A DNA stretch of 57,881 nucleotides from a virus. This document shows, piece after piece, positions 14,665 through 52,169 of this stretch. A model generated the notes under the pieces. It saw only the letters and a program-made list of their open reading frames with translations, was not told the origin of the DNA and ran no database searches. Each line of letters opens with the position of its first letter. Position 1 is the stretch's first letter. The DNA lies in the IMG/VR virus record IMGVR_UViG_3300012002_000216, positions 1-57,881 of that record, one strand, 5' to 3'. Position numbers and translations under genes: made by a program.

Positions 14665-15060
14665 ATGGAAGAAAAACAAGTTCTACTTGTAGATGACTCC
14701 ATCTCTCTTCATACGATGATTGAGATGTTTCTACGACAAAATGACAATCCTCATTACCAGCTATTCTCTGTTGTATCTGCACATGAGATGTTCTCGTACC
14801 TAGATCAACAAGCGATTAGTATAGTCTTGCTCGATATCGGATTATCAGACGGAAATGGGCTGCTATTGACCAAAACGATCAAGCAAACACATCCAGAGAT
14901 TGCGGTTGTTATTATAACGGCGAAGCTGGGAGATGAGCACGCGCAAGCGGCGCTTGAAGCTGGAGCCACAGACTTTCTTTCGAAGCCGTTTGATGGACAG
15001 AGTCTGCTTCAATGCCTTAATAGAATATCCTCATCACATAATACACCATCGAGGATATAA
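14665..15060 (+). CDS. CheY-like single-domain response regulator
   Basis: 131 residues, the length of a lone receiver domain. Key residues are all present: acidic pair D10-D11, phospho-acceptor D57 in VLLDIGLSDGNG, T85 in VIITA and K107 in LSKPF. No output domain. It overlaps the diguanylate cyclase by one base (TAATG), so the two are coupled and probably work together: phosphorylation by a host kinase could control the cyclase (inference). No histidine kinase is in the window. Such genes are rarely seen in phages. Confidence 0.9.
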   Translation: MEEKQVLLVDDSISLHTMIEMFLRQNDNPHYQLFSVVSAHEMFSYLDQQAISIVLLDIGLSDGNGLLLTKTIKQTHPEIAVVIITAKLGDEHAQAALEAGATDFLSKPFDGQSLLQCLNRISSSHNTPSRI

Positions 15061-16232
15061 TGGGTGTGTCATCCTTACATGAGTCCTCTTCGATAAAACT
15101 AGAACAACATCTGTTTTTAGTTGGCGCACTGTTTTACCCATTGTGGAGTCTTTTTCTAGCGATAGCAGTACCTACAGCGTATGATATAGCTAGCGGTAGA
15201 ATCGCAGTGGGGGTTTTTGGTCTTTGTTTATTACTATTAACCTATCGATTTGAGTGGGCACACCAAAGAACAGCTCTACTCAAATATCTATATGTATACG
15301 TAGGTACTGCGCAATTTGCTTCGCTCATCTATTTATCAAATGGATCAACAATCTACGCAATAGGAAACATTATTTTTAGCGCTGCGGTTTCAATGCTCTT
15401 CACGAAACCTCGCCCGTATGCTATATTTACTACGTATTGGATCCTCTTAAACATACTTGCAATCAGCCATACACCGATGTCACCTGATCATGTAGCGATG
15501 GTGTTTGGTGGTATACTTACGACACACTTTGTTATAGGCTATCTGCTTTATTCTAGAACAAAAGCCTTAATGCAGGTGGTAGAGCAACAAACTCGTGCAG
15601 ATGCACTACAGCGACAGATTTTAACACAAGAGTTGGAAAAGGCGAAAGAGTCCGCCGAAATGCTACGCAAAAGAGCCTATTACGATTTTCTGACTGGTCT
15701 AGCGAATCGCGCGATGTTTAGGGATACACTAAATCGTCAATTCGCAGCTGCTAGACGTACAGGATCTACCCTTGGCATTTTATTTATTGATCTAGATGGT
15801 TTCAAAGCTATAAACGATTCTCGAGGTCACGATGTTGGTGATTCATTATTGAAAGAGTTCGCCGTGCGTCTTGATCGATCATTAAGACAAGAAGATCTAG
15901 CAGCCCGAATTGGCGGTGATGAGTTTGCAGCGATACTATCAGAAATAAGTGACCCTCAGGATCCTGAGGTTATATGTAATCGCATTCTTGAAGAGGTGAG
16001 TACTCCGATCAAAGTTGGTGTGTATGAGTGTAAGATTGGAGCGAGCATTGGTCTTGCAATAACTCCACGTGCAGGTCAAGACCCAACAGAACAAATTCAT
16101 GATCCAGTAGATCTCATAAAGCAGGCTGATATCGCAATGTATGTTGCAAAGGAATCTGGAAAAAATGGATGGGTAAGCTACTCAGAAGAGCTAGCTTACT
16201 TGAATGCAAAGTCTTTCAGAAAGACTATCTAA
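15060..16232 (+). CDS. Membrane-anchored diguanylate cyclase (GGDEF)
   Basis: 390 residues. The N-terminal about 170 residues hold five to six hydrophobic segments, then a short coiled-coil signalling helix (about 178-205), then a complete GGDEF domain: DFLTGLANR, IDLDGFKAINDSRGHDVGD and the active-site GGDEF at 285-289. The inhibitory I-site RxxD (276-279) is kept with the usual 5-residue spacing. It should make cyclic di-GMP from two GTP at the inner membrane, with product feedback. No EAL domain. Raising host c-di-GMP would favour sessile, biofilm growth; the benefit to the phage is inference. Convergent overlap with the next gene at its stop. Confidence 0.92.
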   Translation: MGVSSLHESSSIKLEQHLFLVGALFYPLWSLFLAIAVPTAYDIASGRIAVGVFGLCLLLLTYRFEWAHQRTALLKYLYVYVGTAQFASLIYLSNGSTIYAIGNIIFSAAVSMLFTKPRPYAIFTTYWILLNILAISHTPMSPDHVAMVFGGILTTHFVIGYLLYSRTKALMQVVEQQTRADALQRQILTQELEKAKESAEMLRKRAYYDFLTGLANRAMFRDTLNRQFAAARRTGSTLGILFIDLDGFKAINDSRGHDVGDSLLKEFAVRLDRSLRQEDLAARIGGDEFAAILSEISDPQDPEVICNRILEEVSTPIKVGVYECKIGASIGLAITPRAGQDPTEQIHDPVDLIKQADIAMYVAKESGKNGWVSYSEELAYLNAKSFRKTI

Positions 16233-16711
16233 GCCTGAACATCGTTCAACGTCGGCGATCCATATAATCCATTCATACTTTGATCATCGATAGTCTGGCT
16301 AAGGAATACGAGAAGCTGGGACGCCTCATCTGTCATAGTAGCTATTGAGGTGTTCACATCCCCTAACAACTTACGCATTTGAGTTTGAATGAGTTCTTTT
16401 TGATCTTCCATTTCAGAGATAAGAGTACCTAGTTCAGACAGCTGGTTAGAATCTACACTCATATCTTTATTCGAGTATGCAGGAGTTGGGGAGGCTACTC
16501 CTGGAAACGTTGAAACTGCCATAGCTGGCGCTTGGTCCGAATATTTTGCCACTATATCAGCATATTTTGATTTAGCTTGTGTCAGGTCAGTAACTACTGA
16601 TTTGTATTGCTTGAGGAATTGAGAGAGGGACTCAAGTGCTTGTACTGATTCAGTATACTTGGAATCAATCTCTCCTCCAAGCTGTTGCACGATTTGTTGC
16701 GCACGATCCAT
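16229..16711 (-). CDS. Coiled-coil hypothetical protein
   Basis: 160 residues from the ATG at 16711, chosen because GGAGGG lies upstream; it follows the 16714-17271 gene by 2 nt. Largely helical with predicted coiled coils at about 15-55 and 100-140 around a Pro/Ala linker. No motif recognised. TAG stop. Confidence 0.6.
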   Translation of the reverse strand: MDRAQQIVQQLGGEIDSKYTESVQALESLSQFLKQYKSVVTDLTQAKSKYADIVAKYSDQAPAMAVSTFPGVASPTPAYSNKDMSVDSNQLSELGTLISEMEDQKELIQTQMRKLLGDVNTSIATMTDEASQLLVFLSQTIDDQSMNGLYGSPTLNDVQA

Positions 16712-16713
16712 GA

Positions 16714-17271
16714 TTATCCCTCCTTCCAATAAAGGCGTGTACCAGCAGGGTACACCTTACCTTCTATCATAGTAGGACGCTCTAATTCAACCTCATTATT
16801 TTCATCCTCATCCGTATTGAAAGCAGCTGATGGTTCCATCATCGAGCGAACTCCTGTATGCTGAGGAAAATCACCATCAGTAGACCCTTGAGGCGCTAAG
16901 GACGATGTAGTGCGGGTATGCTGTGGAAACTCCCCTGCATCCTGCTCTAAGTCTGTATGATGAACATCGCTAAATGAGTGTGTAGTTTCGGGGTCCTTAT
17001 TAGAGTATGTTTTACCAAGCTTATTAGCTAATTGAGATTTTGGATTTCCGAATCCACCATGCCGCGCAACTGGATCTGTAAACATATAGTAATCTGTGTA
17101 TACAACCGGATCGGGATGATCCGTATGATCCTGTGTAGTTGGATCAGCTTGAGTAAACTCATCAGTTTCTTCATCTTCTGGTTGGTTGATGAACTCGCGC
17201 GGATCTCTATTATTCGGTGGCATGAACTCTATGTCTTTGAAAAAACTCAAGAGATCTTTATCTTGTATCAT
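16714..17271 (-). CDS. Low-complexity acidic hypothetical protein
   Basis: 185 residues, rich in Asp, Thr, His and Pro, probably disordered, with an imperfect internal repeat (GEFPQHTRTTSS and GDFPQHTGVRSM). The last 25 residues may form a small beta motif (MIEGKVYPAGTRLYWKEG). Function unknown. Preceded by an ACTAATTA element inside a long inverted repeat. Confidence 0.6.
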   Translation of the reverse strand: MIQDKDLLSFFKDIEFMPPNNRDPREFINQPEDEETDEFTQADPTTQDHTDHPDPVVYTDYYMFTDPVARHGGFGNPKSQLANKLGKTYSNKDPETTHSFSDVHHTDLEQDAGEFPQHTRTTSSLAPQGSTDGDFPQHTGVRSMMEPSAAFNTDEDENNEVELERPTMIEGKVYPAGTRLYWKEG

Positions 17272-44500: not shown

Positions 44501-44747
44501 CGCACTTGACATAGTCAAGAATGTGCGGGTTGTATCTTACACGTATATTGATCAGACAGAGCCTCAAGTTGGATTTATTGCTGAAGATACAGATCCATTG
44601 CTGTCTGGATCTGAACAGGATGCAATGAACATCCCATCAACGGTCGGGGTACTGTTACGTGCTGTACAGGAGCTTTCTCAGCAAAACGAGGAGCTTCAAG
44701 ACCGGGTCAGGACGTTAGAGCGACAGCTTTCAGGAGATATGAAATGA
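41541..44747 (+). CDS. Tail fibre with collar domain and S74 chaperone
   Basis: 1068 residues. A phage tail-collar domain lies near 510-575 (GFLLADGTTQHLSADYPQLL ... FRIPELKS). The last about 95 residues form a Peptidase_S74/intramolecular chaperone domain: SSRSLKANIEDFDSALDIV, then VSYTYID, GFIAEDTDPLLSG and a terminal coiled coil. In the family, this domain trimerises the fibre and cuts itself off at the Ser before the RxLK motif, so the mature fibre probably ends near 970. Likely receptor-binding fibre. The Nudix gene starts inside its last codons (ATGA). Confidence 0.85.
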   Translation: MKKEGLTWISRRTSEYRYSVNGTDQWVHPLSVYTAGEKIQRGQIVSIATALDLNSQNVTRVVDSSIPNGNNVVVKTRTDRHAMASGIALETAEVGEPVHLLENGHFEYEVNLTDEYNPGFTDDDRGKVVYAGPVPGELTLDEKQAVLGSRNLIQVGVISYTDQTLPDDGILAIELQFERDGRGPLETTQFEIAFGEPFSYTEENGNLTPRVFSLGQDDAQPFSYQFTIPRPSAPLPPDGGLPLNLWFAIYSTWAAHVFIFGPASTPHASTIQDEDNIQYLLQQSEQNFAHPLYTTNVPPASWGDPYNTQVPLLNQGAGQEYFLNTLFNAINSADTTNLFGVGQNVELATGIRSIETDGSGTQTRVNGAIYGTASGGPIFVTWDSGLDYLFNETAYEDLGTYQNAGRAVLADRRFQQRARTPLGLLLQDEQKDFEAGDLALFIRKGTYVAPESNTFTPGENYYMGTEGRLTPFNEAFQFPESIVYVGTAKTTRRLMVDIHQPTTSRVAGMPIGGIKPTPEGVNAPEYGFLLADGTTQHLSADYPQLLQELEARYDPADIYVDTSQNTFRIPELKSSLLSNMYYQIKATEYGYEPYSSSSIMKRERGHIASHQVAPIDVSELTLVGPQGAFENLTVDRIFPRLFVEVPTLGWREIPSGFTNAPNGNTYGFAWAIQHQSGQSEYTLWMDTGSGEGLYYLGDMNNPVSLEGARYRLLIMKPHQFARYSDFDLDIQALSLSTIDPVDRHPVNSEAVASYIDAQVDTQSLTVHNNTTLGDGHPGDDDTVVVNADMVVNDNTSSGGVSTIEVHSESGLIETTAPMSPLGGATNTATSTSLVTKNYVDDHRQEQITASYEVHGIRQGHTNGFNADLIDGLHASATAGAGMVPAIDSNGDLHLRKEIVLHRQENGNATSFIETASPVQINLFGTSNAAFLLGLGSGNNRRYIGNNSGTLEILENNILGESYGTIKAGQYKTASSRSLKANIEDFDSALDIVKNVRVVSYTYIDQTEPQVGFIAEDTDPLLSGSEQDAMNIPSTVGVLLRAVQELSQQNEELQDRVRTLERQLSGDMK

Positions 44748-45301
44748 AGGATTTTTCAGTACTATGGACCGGTGATCACCTAAGTGTGATTTCCCCAGAA
44801 GATCAACCATATGAGGCGATTCATGAACAGGATGCTGTACATGTATTGCCTATAGATGTACAAACCTCTGAACTCATTATTAGACGAGAGGTATGCCCGC
44901 CGTATACTGTACGCGACTCACAAGAGCATCCAGACTTTCAGACTATTGTATCCGGTGGTATTGAAGATGGGGAATCTGCAGAAGAGGCAGTCAAGCGAGA
45001 GGTAGCAGAAGAACTTGGAATTGACCTTGAAAAAGCAGAGTATGAAATCATCGCAATGACTCCACCAAGTATTCCATTCATGAAAGCTACAGTAAGTCGT
45101 GTGTCTCTTTTTGCTCTAATGCTCTTTTCCTATGAGATAAATGAGCCTGAAGGAGATGGTTCCTCATACGAGGATATGAGCACATTTGAGTTCGTACCTC
45201 TGCAACAGATTGATAAAGTATTGCTTTCTGATCAAGCAGACCTTCTATTGCATGCAGCGGTTGCAAAGCTTAAGTGTTTTCTTCTTCTGGAGGAGAGCTA
45301 G
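44744..45301 (+). CDS. Nudix hydrolase
   Basis: 185 residues with a perfect Nudix box near 77-99: G, five residues, E, seven residues, REVAEELGI. It would hydrolyse a nucleoside diphosphate derivative; size and the ADP-sugar pyrophosphatase-like flanks (GGIEDGESAEEAVK) are compatible with ADP-ribose or ADP-sugar substrates, but this is inference. Translationally coupled to the fibre gene by a 4-nt overlap, an odd partner. TAG stop; 32-nt convergent overlap with the next gene. Confidence 0.88.
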   Translation: MKDFSVLWTGDHLSVISPEDQPYEAIHEQDAVHVLPIDVQTSELIIRREVCPPYTVRDSQEHPDFQTIVSGGIEDGESAEEAVKREVAEELGIDLEKAEYEIIAMTPPSIPFMKATVSRVSLFALMLFSYEINEPEGDGSSYEDMSTFEFVPLQQIDKVLLSDQADLLLHAAVAKLKCFLLLEES

Positions 45302-46859: not shown

Positions 46860-47147
46860 ATGGAATTACAAGCAATGAAAGAAAGTCTGAAGCACACCGC
46901 TGTAAGACTTCGCACTATCAAACAAGAAATTAAAGCCAAACAACGCGCTGGAATTGATTCCTTCCATCCGCAGCATAATTTACCCGCACTTAAAGCCCAA
47001 TACCGCTATATGCATATTGCGTACTGCGAAATGCGCGGAACACCGTATGAGCGGATTGAACCCTATGTTCGAGAAGGTAACGAACCATCTCGTGTGTACA
47101 TTGATGCATACAAGAAAAAGTACAGTGAGGAAGTAGCAAATGTCTAA
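46860..47147 (+). CDS. Basic helical hypothetical protein
   Basis: 95 residues, Lys/Arg/His rich with helices (HTAVRLRTIKQEIKAKQRAG). SD AAGGAG. Overlaps the Pth2-like gene by 8 nt, so the two are co-expressed. Nucleic-acid binding is possible from charge only. Confidence 0.65.
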   Translation: MELQAMKESLKHTAVRLRTIKQEIKAKQRAGIDSFHPQHNLPALKAQYRYMHIAYCEMRGTPYERIEPYVREGNEPSRVYIDAYKKKYSEEVANV

Positions 47148-47499
47148 ACAAGTGATTATCCTCAACATGGAGGCTGCTATGGGGGTGGGCCGTCTTGCGG
47201 CCCATGCCGCACATGCATCTATCGCTGTGCTACTGGATATGGGGGATTGGACTGATCACGATGCGTTTGAAATTGGTAATATCCCACATGCTATGAGTCG
47301 TTGGATGAAAGAAGCGTTCACAAAGGTTGTTGTTAAGTCCTGGGGGAACGAGGCTCTCAAAGAGTATCACTTTCAAGCACTTGACCAAGACATTCCCACC
47401 TCTCTTATCGAAGAAGATGGGTACGTGACTGCGGTTGCAATTGGACCCGCTGATGTAAGGGATATCGATCCAATTACTCGCACTCTTCCGCTATTGTAA
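47140..47499 (+). CDS. Peptidyl-tRNA hydrolase, Pth2 family
   Basis: 119 residues, the size of a whole Pth2 enzyme. Signature KQVIIL...MGVGRLAAHAAHASIAVL at the N-terminus, KVVVKSWGNEALKEYHFQAL in the middle and TAVAIGPADVRDID near the end match the archaeal/eukaryotic-type family, not bacterial Pth1. It frees tRNAs from abortive peptidyl-tRNA. Its place directly before tRNA genes suggests a role in tRNA recycling during infection. Confidence 0.8.
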   Translation: MSKQVIILNMEAAMGVGRLAAHAAHASIAVLLDMGDWTDHDAFEIGNIPHAMSRWMKEAFTKVVVKSWGNEALKEYHFQALDQDIPTSLIEEDGYVTAVAIGPADVRDIDPITRTLPLL

Positions 47500-47510
47500 G
47501 TATATTGATT

Positions 47511-47528
47511 GGTGATCGAAAGGTCACC
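47511..47528 (+). other. GAAA-capped hairpin before the tRNA
   Basis: GGTGATC-GAAA-GGTCACC, 7-bp stem with one G-U pair and a GNRA tetraloop, just upstream of the tRNA; possibly an RNA-processing signal. Similar GGTCACC/GGTGATC arms recur at 47818-47840. Confidence 0.5.
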
Positions 47529-47531
47529 AGT

Positions 47532-47604
47532 GCTCCTATAGCTCAGAGGTCAGAGCAGGGTACTCTAAATACTCTGGTCCTGGGTTCGAATCCCAGTAGG
47601 GGCA
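47532..47604 (+). tRNA. tRNA with anticodon CUA (amber-reading, suppressor type)
   Basis: Complete 73-nt cloverleaf. Acceptor GCTCCTA/TAGGGGC (one G-U), D arm GCTC/GAGC, anticodon stem GGGTA/TACTC with loop CTCTAAA, 5-nt variable loop, T arm CTGGG-TTCGAAT-CCCAG, discriminator A. Loop positions 34-36 read CTA, which pairs with UAG. No CCA is encoded. The amino acid cannot be told from the sequence. Confidence 0.88.
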
Positions 47605-47610
47605 GCAGAC

Positions 47611-47728
47611 AGCATTGTGGCGAAACGGTAAACGCTACAGAGCCAGAAACCGTTAAAATCGGCGAGTGGGCGGAGATGGAAAGTTGTTGGGGTGTTCCAT
47701 CATGCAGGTTCGAATCCTGCCAATGCTA
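47611..47728 (+). ncRNA. tRNA-like element, atypical middle
   Basis: Acceptor AGCATTG (47611-47617) pairs perfectly with CAATGCT (47721-47727); a normal T arm GCAGG-TTCGAAT-CCTGC precedes it and a D-like arm GCG...CGC follows the 5' strand. Between them are 67 nt instead of about 22, including a 7-bp stem GATGGAA/TTCCATC next to the T arm. No standard anticodon arm could be placed. Could be a tRNA with a giant variable arm or small intron, or a tRNA-like domain of a larger RNA. Confidence 0.5.
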
Positions 47729-47729
47729 G

Positions 47730-48118
47730 TGAGTCAACTGACAGCTACATGACTCAGGGGAACGATGCGTACTGCAGCAATGCGATCGTTTGCGACCGAA
47801 AAACCCTAGCTGGATCGGGTCACCGGAGGAACAGGTGATCGTCTGCTCATACGATAGTTGAGATACACAAGTAGGGAGAATAGCCCTACTACCGAGTCAC
47901 CGGGGAATCAGGTGGAATGGATGCGGCATTGCGAGGTTAGACAACGGAGGCTATTGCGCTCCCGAAGGGTCTGCCGAAACACCTCGCACATAGCTCTGAG
48001 GCGAGAGGCACACGCGGTAAGCGAAGTGAAGGCCGAGACAGTACCATGTAGCAATAGCGAAGGGTATAAGGCGCTACACTGACTTCACTCTTCGTAGGTT
48101 CGAATCCTACCAGTGCTA
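47730..48118 (+). ncRNA. Structured non-coding RNA ending in a T arm
   Basis: About 390 nt without a credible gene. Strong stems: TGAGTCA/TGACTCA (47730/47750), AACGAT/ATCGTT (47761/47785), GGTCACC/GGTGATC (47818/47834), AGTAGGG/CCCTACT (47870/47884), CACC/GGTG (47898/47911), TGCGAGGT/ACCTCGCA (47930/47981), AGTGAAG/CTTCACT (48025/48083), TGTAGC/GCTACA (48048/48073). It ends with a tRNA-type T arm GTAGG-TTCGAAT-CCTAC and CAGTGCTA, which can pair with AGCATTG at 47611 or GGCATTG at 47924. No match to tmRNA or RNase P cores. Possibly of the large ornate phage RNA type (GOLLD/ROOL-like); unproven. Confidence 0.6.
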
Positions 48119-48148
48119 TATTCTAGAAGACGGGAGGAAAATTCGCTA

Positions 48149-48773: not shown

Positions 48774-48803
48774 GCATATACATCTAGGAACATGAGGAGC
48801 TAT

Positions 48804-50432
48804 ATGAAAGAGTTGAAATATTCATCCGATGTGCGGCGACGGCTTTTCGTCGGTGTTGAAAAACTATCACAAGCGGTAGCCGTTACGCTCGGACCGAAGG
48901 GACGTAATGTGCTTATTGAGCGCGGGTTCGGCTCACCGTTGATGACCAAGGATGGGGTCACTGTTGCGAAAGAAGTGAAACTGTCCGATAAATATGAAAA
49001 TCTTGGTGTGCAGACAATCAAGGAAGCCGCTACCCGTACAAATGAGACTGCTGGTGATGGAACTACTACCGCTACAGTTCTTGCACATGGTATCATTGCC
49101 GAAGGGCTTAAGCTGGTAGAGGCTGGTCATGACCCTATGGAGCTTCGTCGCGGTATCGATGCTGCCATGTCCTATGCAATTGATAGTCTAGATACTATCA
49201 CACGTCCTGTTCGTGATCGTGATGACCTATTGCACATTGCTACTATCTCAGCTAACAGTGATACTGAAATAGGAGAGCACATTGCTGACGCATTTACAGC
49301 AATCGGTAAAGACGGTGTTGTAACTGTTGAAGAGTCGCGAGGGTTTGATACATATATAAATTACCTTGAAGGTATGCAGTTTGATAAGGGGTATCTTTCT
49401 CCGTACTTTGCTAACACAGATACCTTTACTGTTGAATATGATAATCCATATATTCTTCTTTCAGATCAACCCATTGTAAACGCTCAAGCCCTAGCAGGGT
49501 TATTAGAAACCGTACGACGACAGCAGAGAGGTCTTGTTCTTATTGCCCGTGATGTATCAGGAGATGCACTTACAGCTCTTGTTGTAAACAACTCACGAGG
49601 AATCATTCAAGCAGCAGCTGTTCGTGCCCCGTCCTTTGGTGATCGTCAGCGATTGATGCTAGAAGACTTGGCAATTTTGCTCGGTGGAGAAATTATCGGG
49701 CAGCATACTGGTCTTGAGTTGAGTGATGTAAAGATTGAAAATCTTGGTTCATGTGATAAGATTAAGATCACTTCACAAGAAACGATTATCATCAATGGTC
49801 ATGGAGAGAAAGAAGCGATTGATGAACGTATTGCTCTTCTACGTACAAACATCGAAGAAGAACGATCGCCCTTTCTCAAAGAACAGCATCAAGAGCGCCT
49901 TTCAAAGCTTTCAGGTGGTGTAGCAATATTACATGTTGGTGGGTCTACTGAGGTAGAGCTCATGGAACGAAAATATAGGGTTGAGGACGCTCTATCCGCT
50001 ACACGAGCAGCTATTGAAACTGGTGTTGTGCCCGGTGGTGGAGTAGCACTGTTGCGAATTGCTGAAGAGCTAGCTGCTGCCGATATAAATGGCTACTCAA
50101 GCACATATCAAGCCGGGTTTGATATTGTGCAACTTGCCATGAAGTACCCATTGCGACGAATTGCGTCCAACGCAGGTACCTCAGCGGATGTTATCATTGA
50201 TAAGATCTTAACCAAAGAAGAGTTCGGGTATGGATGGGACGCTAAAAATGGCGTCTTTGGTTATATGTATGATATGGGTATTATTGACCCAGCTAAGGTC
50301 GCTGTATCAGCAATTCGTAATGCTTGTTCTGTTGCAGGAACGTTTCTAACTACAGAGTGCGCTATTGTAGACGTATCTAATATCACAGTCACGTCTAACA
50401 ACGAACTTCCGTTGTCAGATATGGGAATGTAG
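48804..50432 (+). CDS. groEL: Phage chaperonin GroEL
   Basis: 542 residues. Start at ATG 48804, because GAGGAG lies between it and an upstream in-frame ATG. Typical group I chaperonin features: TLGPKGRNVLIERGFGSP, ATP-binding GDGTTTATVLAHG near 84, NSDTEIGEHIADA and the late VVPGGGVALLRIAEEL. The C-terminus ends LPLSDMGM, without the GGM repeats of cellular GroEL. No groES is visible. It may fold capsid or other virion proteins. The TAG stop is followed in frame, one codon later, by the ATG of the next gene. Confidence 0.95.
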   Translation: MKELKYSSDVRRRLFVGVEKLSQAVAVTLGPKGRNVLIERGFGSPLMTKDGVTVAKEVKLSDKYENLGVQTIKEAATRTNETAGDGTTTATVLAHGIIAEGLKLVEAGHDPMELRRGIDAAMSYAIDSLDTITRPVRDRDDLLHIATISANSDTEIGEHIADAFTAIGKDGVVTVEESRGFDTYINYLEGMQFDKGYLSPYFANTDTFTVEYDNPYILLSDQPIVNAQALAGLLETVRRQQRGLVLIARDVSGDALTALVVNNSRGIIQAAAVRAPSFGDRQRLMLEDLAILLGGEIIGQHTGLELSDVKIENLGSCDKIKITSQETIIINGHGEKEAIDERIALLRTNIEEERSPFLKEQHQERLSKLSGGVAILHVGGSTEVELMERKYRVEDALSATRAAIETGVVPGGGVALLRIAEELAAADINGYSSTYQAGFDIVQLAMKYPLRRIASNAGTSADVIIDKILTKEEFGYGWDAKNGVFGYMYDMGIIDPAKVAVSAIRNACSVAGTFLTTECAIVDVSNITVTSNNELPLSDMGM

Positions 50433-50435
50433 TAT

Positions 50436-50723
50436 ATGGTTACCAATACTGAGAGTCGAGGGAAGTCAGCAGTACCTACTTCTTTTTTCCAATGCCGGGT
50501 ATCACCCTACATAAAACGAATAACGAAGAAGTATCCTATCAACTATGATTCGGCGCTAATCTTTCCAACGCGAGAGATGGCGTCAACGTATATGCCTATG
50601 TTTATTAAAAAGCTGTATGAGGATGGTTTTCTTGAAGAAAAGCAAGACTATGAGACTAAAATCATTCAGCTAGCAACGTATATTCCAGAAATGCAAGAAT
50701 CAGGAGGAGTCCAACATGAGTGA
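50436..50723 (+). CDS. Hypothetical protein, in frame with groEL
   Basis: 95 residues, basic N-terminal half with Lys-rich YIKRITKKYPINYDSALIF, then a helix and an acidic end. Only a weak SD (GGGA). In frame with groEL, separated by TAG TAT, so amber readthrough would fuse it to GroEL. Function unknown; a co-chaperonin is possible but there is no GroES motif. Confidence 0.6.
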   Translation: MVTNTESRGKSAVPTSFFQCRVSPYIKRITKKYPINYDSALIFPTREMASTYMPMFIKKLYEDGFLEEKQDYETKIIQLATYIPEMQESGGVQHE

Positions 50724-51709: not shown

Positions 51710-51713
51710 TTTG

Positions 51714-52169
51714 ATGCCCAAAGAAAAAGAGCTTTCGGTTGGGACTATCTTGACCGATGGAATATCGATGCTAGCCTGTCAACCATTCAGTCGTAAGGGG
51801 CGCCCTGGTAACTACGATATTCCTAAAGGGCATTTAGAGAAAGGAGAGTCACCTCTTGAAACTGCTCTTCGCGAGATGCAAGAAGAGACGGGGTTTTATA
51901 TTACACATCCCGAGCAAATGATTGATCTAGGTGAATATAGCTACATTCCCACCAAAAACCTCCATGTGTTCTTTTATGACATAGATGCTGTTCCAGAGCC
52001 TGACACCCTAAAATGTTCAACGTACTTTACGTATAGAGGCCGTGAGGTGCCTGAAGTCATTGGGTACCGACATGTTGCTATAGATGACTTGCAATGGTTC
52101 TTTCCATCGTTACAATCTGTATTATCAGAAGCATTCGATAATCTAATAACCATATTAGAAGAGGAGTAA
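51714..52169 (+). CDS. Nudix hydrolase
   Basis: 151 residues from ATG 51714 (GGAG 7 nt upstream). Complete Nudix box near 40-62: GHLEKGESPLETALREMQEETGF. The preceding RKGRPGNYDIPKGHLEKGE is typical of (di)nucleoside polyphosphate or dNTP hydrolases of the MutT type. Second Nudix enzyme in the window. Likely cleans up nucleotide pools or alters host nucleotide signals. Confidence 0.88.
   Translation: MPKEKELSVGTILTDGISMLACQPFSRKGRPGNYDIPKGHLEKGESPLETALREMQEETGFYITHPEQMIDLGEYSYIPTKNLHVFFYDIDAVPEPDTLKCSTYFTYRGREVPEVIGYRHVAIDDLQWFFPSLQSVLSEAFDNLITILEEE

Follow-up and report, generated by a model that had tools for sequence, protein, structure and literature searches.

A phage that encodes a tRNA for a stop codon and goes on using that codon for termination is a paradox already in print. 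Xanthomonas phage XacN1 carries CUA tRNAs together with 18 amber-ended genes, and an in silico search for readthrough found no target (PMC5852040). The Stenotrophomonas phages Summit and DLP5 have one CUA tRNA and 12 amber-ended genes, and the purpose of the tRNA is unknown (PMC9022506). All Lak megaphages carry a TAA-decoding tRNA, and TAA is not recoded (PMC8346664). Another case is the amber tRNA at positions 47532-47604 of IMG/VR virus record IMGVR_UViG_3300012002_000216, one linear, possibly incomplete contig of 57,881 nucleotides (57.9 kb), analysed over its whole length and called the window here. What is new is the neighbour of the tRNA, a gene for a peptidyl-tRNA hydrolase of the PTH2 family: in large phages PTH2 genes adjoin stop-anticodon tRNAs (CUA, sometimes UUA) far above chance, and no description of this pairing was found in the open-access literature.

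The window shares with XacN1 a CUA tRNA beside TAG-ended genes; the XacN1 tRNA is the closest to it by sequence (78%), and XacN1 also encodes a PTH2. However, the XacN1 CUA tRNAs are two in tandem inside a large tRNA array, and its PTH2 lies about 138 kb from them and has kept a motif lysine that the window protein has lost. Summit and DLP5 are alike in combining a CUA tRNA with amber-ended genes but tblastn found no PTH2 there, and no in-frame gene follows an amber stop. Lak phages likewise carry a stop-anticodon tRNA for a codon that is not recoded, although theirs is UUA and they truly recode TAG; in Lak-B7 (L395) the TAA-decoding tRNA is 573 nt from a PTH2 gene. In the cultured mycobacteriophages of cluster C1 (I3, HyRo), PTH2 is followed about 300 nt downstream by a same-strand tRNA-Pyl(cta), but that pair sits in a large tRNA array and its PTH2 belongs to a different subclade. 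A phage-encoded CUA tRNA is also found in code-15 crAss-like and Lak phages and as theta-ribozyme-linked tRNA-Sup (PMC10879173). The window differs from these in that its TAG is not sense, and association with a theta ribozyme was rejected, no HDV-like Rfam match being present beside the tRNA at E<=10 (a search with the Rfam models, not with the published theta motif). The elements of the locus are:

47532..47604, plus strand: amber-decoding tRNA (ARAGORN and Rfam tRNA model)
47140..47499, plus strand: PTH2-family (archaeal/eukaryotic type) peptidyl-tRNA hydrolase, 119 aa (Pfam PF01981, E 6e-19)
47511..47528, plus strand: hairpin with a GAAA loop, just 5' of the tRNA (from sequence and folding)

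In ARAGORN the tRNA spans 47531-47606 and its anticodon is CTA; the match to the Rfam tRNA model covers 47532-47604 with all model positions aligned, and its score of 65.6 bits (E 4.5e-12) is far from that of a chance match. Both thus agree with the first-pass annotation, which had read here a complete tRNA with a CUA anticodon. The features of a phage amber suppressor are all present, namely a full cloverleaf, the CUA anticodon (47565-47567) in the loop CUCUAAA, U33 and A37; G1 pairs with C72, the discriminator is A73 and CCA is not encoded. U33 and A36-A37-A38 match efficient amber suppressors. In a panel comparison other phage amber tRNAs come closest, also when the anticodon is masked, and that of XacN1 is the nearest. 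The nearest sense tRNAs point to no single isotype: one panel gives Thr, His and Arg, whereas blastn matches give Lys. A pyrrolysine system was considered and rejected: the ARAGORN label 'tRNA-Pyl' derives from the anticodon only, and the D arm is ordinary with GG and the variable loop has 5 nt, whereas tRNA-Pyl has a compact D loop and a 3-nt variable loop. A Pfam scan of 50 window proteins, on a contig that may be incomplete, found no PylRS, no other tRNA synthetase that might charge a suppressor and no release factor 2.

The PTH2 gene ends 32 nt before the tRNA and was absent from the first-pass annotation, as were two long tRNA-like elements downstream. Its PF01981 domain spans the full length of the protein. 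The lysine of the GK motif is replaced by arginine (VGRLAAHAAHA), and in the alignment with the solved archaeal PTH2 2zv3 (E 2e-9) R stands opposite K. Its sister on the tree is the PTH2 of G073, a phage contig of 306 kb; in G073, as in the window, the amber tRNA begins 33 nt after the PTH2 stop.

The pairing was examined in a partial survey of mostly metagenomic contigs, in which neighbouring tRNAs are ARAGORN calls, with the covariance model applied to part of them. A pattern for the window tRNA type yielded 95 viral stretches, many on contigs >100 kb, and 80 loci were examined; in about half of these CUA-tRNA loci, reading TAG as sense brings little or no gain. Thirty contigs have both PTH2 and a CUA tRNA of the window type. 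The nearest PTH2 is within 2.5 kb in 10 of them (four of which, G041, G054, G076 and G088, are related) and within roughly 100 nt in 3, and the distances depart from uniform placement (Kolmogorov-Smirnov p = 6e-5). Contigs selected by CUA tRNA are enriched by design, and samples led by PTH2 or by tRNA-Lys are the cleaner evidence. The PTH2-led sample has a CUA tRNA within 3 kb in LR756500 (second copy), LR756501, HyRo and I3, and a UUA tRNA within 3 kb in LR745208 and Lak-B7; ten further PTH2 loci of phage records, examined alike, have no stop-anticodon tRNA within 3 kb. Among contigs selected by tRNA-Lys, the PTH2 loci of G128, G153 and G154 have a CUA tRNA within 0.5 kb, and stop anticodons account for only 3 of the 1507 tRNAs (0.2%) in the loci so selected. 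The linkage requires five changes on the PTH2 tree, where shuffled labels need 19.5 on average, and is therefore inherited within several PTH2 branches. The linked phages sampled use the standard code.

Linkage goes with a changed motif in several lineages. Across 70 PTH2 sequences compared, the GK-motif lysine, which we take to be catalytic, is lost in 20 of 23 linked proteins and kept in 40 of 45 unlinked ones (Fisher p = 6e-9, ignoring relatedness). At least three losses are separate: one in the window and G073, one in G154 and one in a large FxEPD subclade. The replacement is Arg in the former three proteins and Tyr, Leu, Val, Gln or Phe in the subclade. The exceptions are three linked proteins with the lysine (G082, G034, G029) and five unlinked ones without it (G083b, G032, G089b, G025, LR756504). 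Two diverged phages, moreover, have a PTH2 gene interrupted by TAG:

L345:1381-1743 (G078): TAG-interrupted PTH2 gene, CUA tRNA downstream
L391:2989-3366 (LR756501): TAG-interrupted PTH2 gene, CUA tRNA downstream

The in-frame TAG is at the same site in both, the 11th residue past the conserved His, and LR756501 has a second one near the start of the gene; the product in these phages therefore needs a working suppressor tRNA. G078 uses TAG sparingly as a stop. In a segment of the 735-kb phage LR756501 (300001-350000, L436), none of 47 open reading frames (ORFs) ends in or contains TAG and code 15 brings no gain, so that TAG appears to have been freed as a stop and to be hardly used as sense. 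Such a codon is absent from the window PTH2.

In the window phage TAG truly terminates genes. The 56 genes of the window end in TAA (29), TAG (15) or TGA (12), the number of TAG ends being the one counted in the first-pass annotation, and the absence of in-frame TAG from the large genes reported there holds for all long genes of the set. Reading TAG as sense moves the coding density from 0.92 to 0.91, and the earlier view that the phage is not fully recoded is borne out; code 15 was rejected on both grounds. The nearest relatives found are two IMG/VR contigs with a baseplate protein 55% identical (G002, the longer, and G001, a shorter near-copy), which are syntenic with the window but lack PTH2 and the tRNAs. 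Orthologues were paired for 39 genes. On the window side 12 of these have TAG as their stop, whereas their partners in the relative have TAA (9) or TGA (3) and in no case TAG; for 10 of the 12 the two stops are within 10 residues of each other. Stop class is not conserved between the orthologues, and over the same pairs TAG is used 12 times in the window and 9 times in the relative, which has no such tRNA. Since the TAG ends match the relative's stops, and the relative uses TAG similarly often without the tRNA, there is neither recoding nor a detectable readthrough target. The stage-specific switch on TAG-ended genes that had been proposed at first pass finds no support in these comparisons or in the readthrough extensions, which are not coding-like except that of GroEL. 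Readthrough of UAG at a low level may nonetheless occur. That virion genes mostly end in TAA or TGA, as also proposed, is right as a count (TAG in 1 of 10, against 14 of 46 for the rest), but the difference is not significant (Fisher p = 0.26).

Further features of the region are:

47611..47728, plus strand: class-II tRNA-like element, 118 nt (Rfam tRNA 40.9 bits; ARAGORN with introns allowed)
47992..48118, plus strand: second class-II tRNA-like element, 127 nt (ARAGORN only at a relaxed threshold with introns)
48792..50432, plus strand: GroEL-like chaperonin (Pfam 1e-72), its TAG at 50430-50432
50436..50723, plus strand: 95-aa ORF in the GroEL frame, one codon past the TAG, the one readthrough fusion of appreciable size to show homology

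In the first element the acceptor, the T arm and the long variable arm are perfect, but the anticodon region is longer by about 34 nt. The second, which also has extra sequence in the anticodon region, has a clear T arm (repeat D6) and acceptor, the rest being doubtful (Rfam partial match, 14.4 bits). They are possibly intron-bearing or degenerate tRNAs, or else stable RNAs of the tRNA cluster. A structured RNA at 47729-48122 was considered and rejected, the folding being no better than that of shuffles (z -0.40). Two NUDIX hydrolase genes (44744-45301 and 51711-52169) flank the PTH2/tRNA/GroEL region. Elsewhere in the window a response-regulator gene and a GGDEF (diguanylate cyclase) gene adjoin at 14665-16232, an unusual cargo for a phage; a search found no orthologue of the GGDEF gene in the relative.

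How might the pair work? We put at about even the chance that 47140-47604 is a two-gene module, an altered PTH2 followed by a stop-decoding tRNA, in which limited readthrough is handled by PTH2. With the tRNA, presumably charged in the cell, a minor share of the ribosomes would insert an amino acid at UAG; host release factor 1 would still terminate most of them, and TAG would thereby stay a usable stop. Ribosomes past the stop would reach the end of the message, stall and leave peptidyl-tRNA, which PTH2 would cleave; this would return tRNA to use, the scarce suppressor tRNA most of all. Alternatively, PTH2 might directly control the amount of active suppressor tRNA. Readthrough by suppressor tRNA creates a need for ribosome rescue, according to Ueda et al. 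(2002) as cited in PMC3985003. The loss of the lysine slightly favours PTH2 as a restraint on the suppressor tRNA, and the known activity of PTH2 slightly favours the clearing of peptidyl-tRNA.

Several observations weigh against the proposed module. The lysine loss could mean that peptidyl-tRNA hydrolysis is gone, in which case recycling may be the wrong idea. PTH2 is found in 29 of 55 CUA-tRNA contigs against 6 of 40 (raw p 2e-4), but this enrichment is partly an effect of size (8 of 17 against 4 of 15 in contigs of 100-260 kb, p = 0.29) and for that reason is not used as proof. PTH2 occurs with no stop tRNA nearby in XacN1, RAS14, Astolliot, Atu_ph07 and many other phages, and some phages have a stop tRNA with no PTH2 nearby; neither, therefore, strictly needs the other. 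Finally, the module is absent from the window's own relative clade, sequence searches having found no relative with the same insert, so that conservation of this copy is not assessable.

The most improbable of the alternatives is that the phage programmes the readthrough of a single gene or a few, such as GroEL with the 95-aa ORF. An in-frame ORF does start one codon after the GroEL TAG, a test that Summit failed (PMC9022506). But among the 15 extensions compared only that of GroEL resembles anything, the match being the next gene; in the relative GroEL ends in TAA with the next gene separate and in another frame, and one in-frame pair in 15 TAG genes is unremarkable. GroEL was rejected as a programmed fusion on the relative's arrangement, and so was gene 16229-16729, whose alignment seemed to run beyond its TAG, the relative having TAA at the same place. 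Scarcely more probable is a selfish passenger or a decaying tRNA with no present function. The irregular look of the two tRNA-like elements downstream, and close relatives that lack the whole insert, would fit such a history, but the amber tRNA is intact, and several lineages show such a pair with PTH2 again.

Counter-defence has more to commend it and is still unlikely. PTH2 and the tRNA would keep translation going under tRNA cleavage or ribosome jamming by the host, the odd anticodon evading anticodon nucleases and UAG decoding being incidental. PTH2 phages often carry many tRNAs, and PTH2 of jumbo phages has been proposed to rescue ribosomes after tRNA cleavage (PMC7824862). The linkage, however, is to stop anticodons, which are so rare among background tRNAs, and not to tRNAs generally, and a cleaved tRNA cannot be replaced by one without a sense codon to decode. 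We would put at perhaps one chance in a few the reading of PTH2 as a dedicated controller that binds or deacylates the suppressor tRNA, in place of a general hydrolase, and times the reading of stop codons. The near-invariant lysine is lost from linked proteins on separate branches, and in G078 and LR756501 synthesis of PTH2 itself would depend on the tRNA. Yet only those two contigs have the internal TAG, which the window gene lacks, and activity may survive so conservative an exchange as Lys to Arg.

Tentatively, and at somewhat less than even probability, the pair may represent an undescribed phage module in which a PTH2 with an altered active site serves a stop-anticodon tRNA as its dedicated partner where there is no recoding, PTH2 being sometimes amber-controlled itself, as in G078 and LR756501. 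The suppressor tRNAs of XacN1, Summit and Lak have no visible target, and a recurring neighbour with a specific change makes their purpose testable. The pair is present in the cultured mycobacteriophages I3 and HyRo, which are grown on Mycobacterium smegmatis, and that of Lak-B7 may bear on the universal presence of a TAA tRNA in Lak phages that do not recode TAA. If the proposal is true, phages would tune termination with no change of code, a possible early step to recoding.
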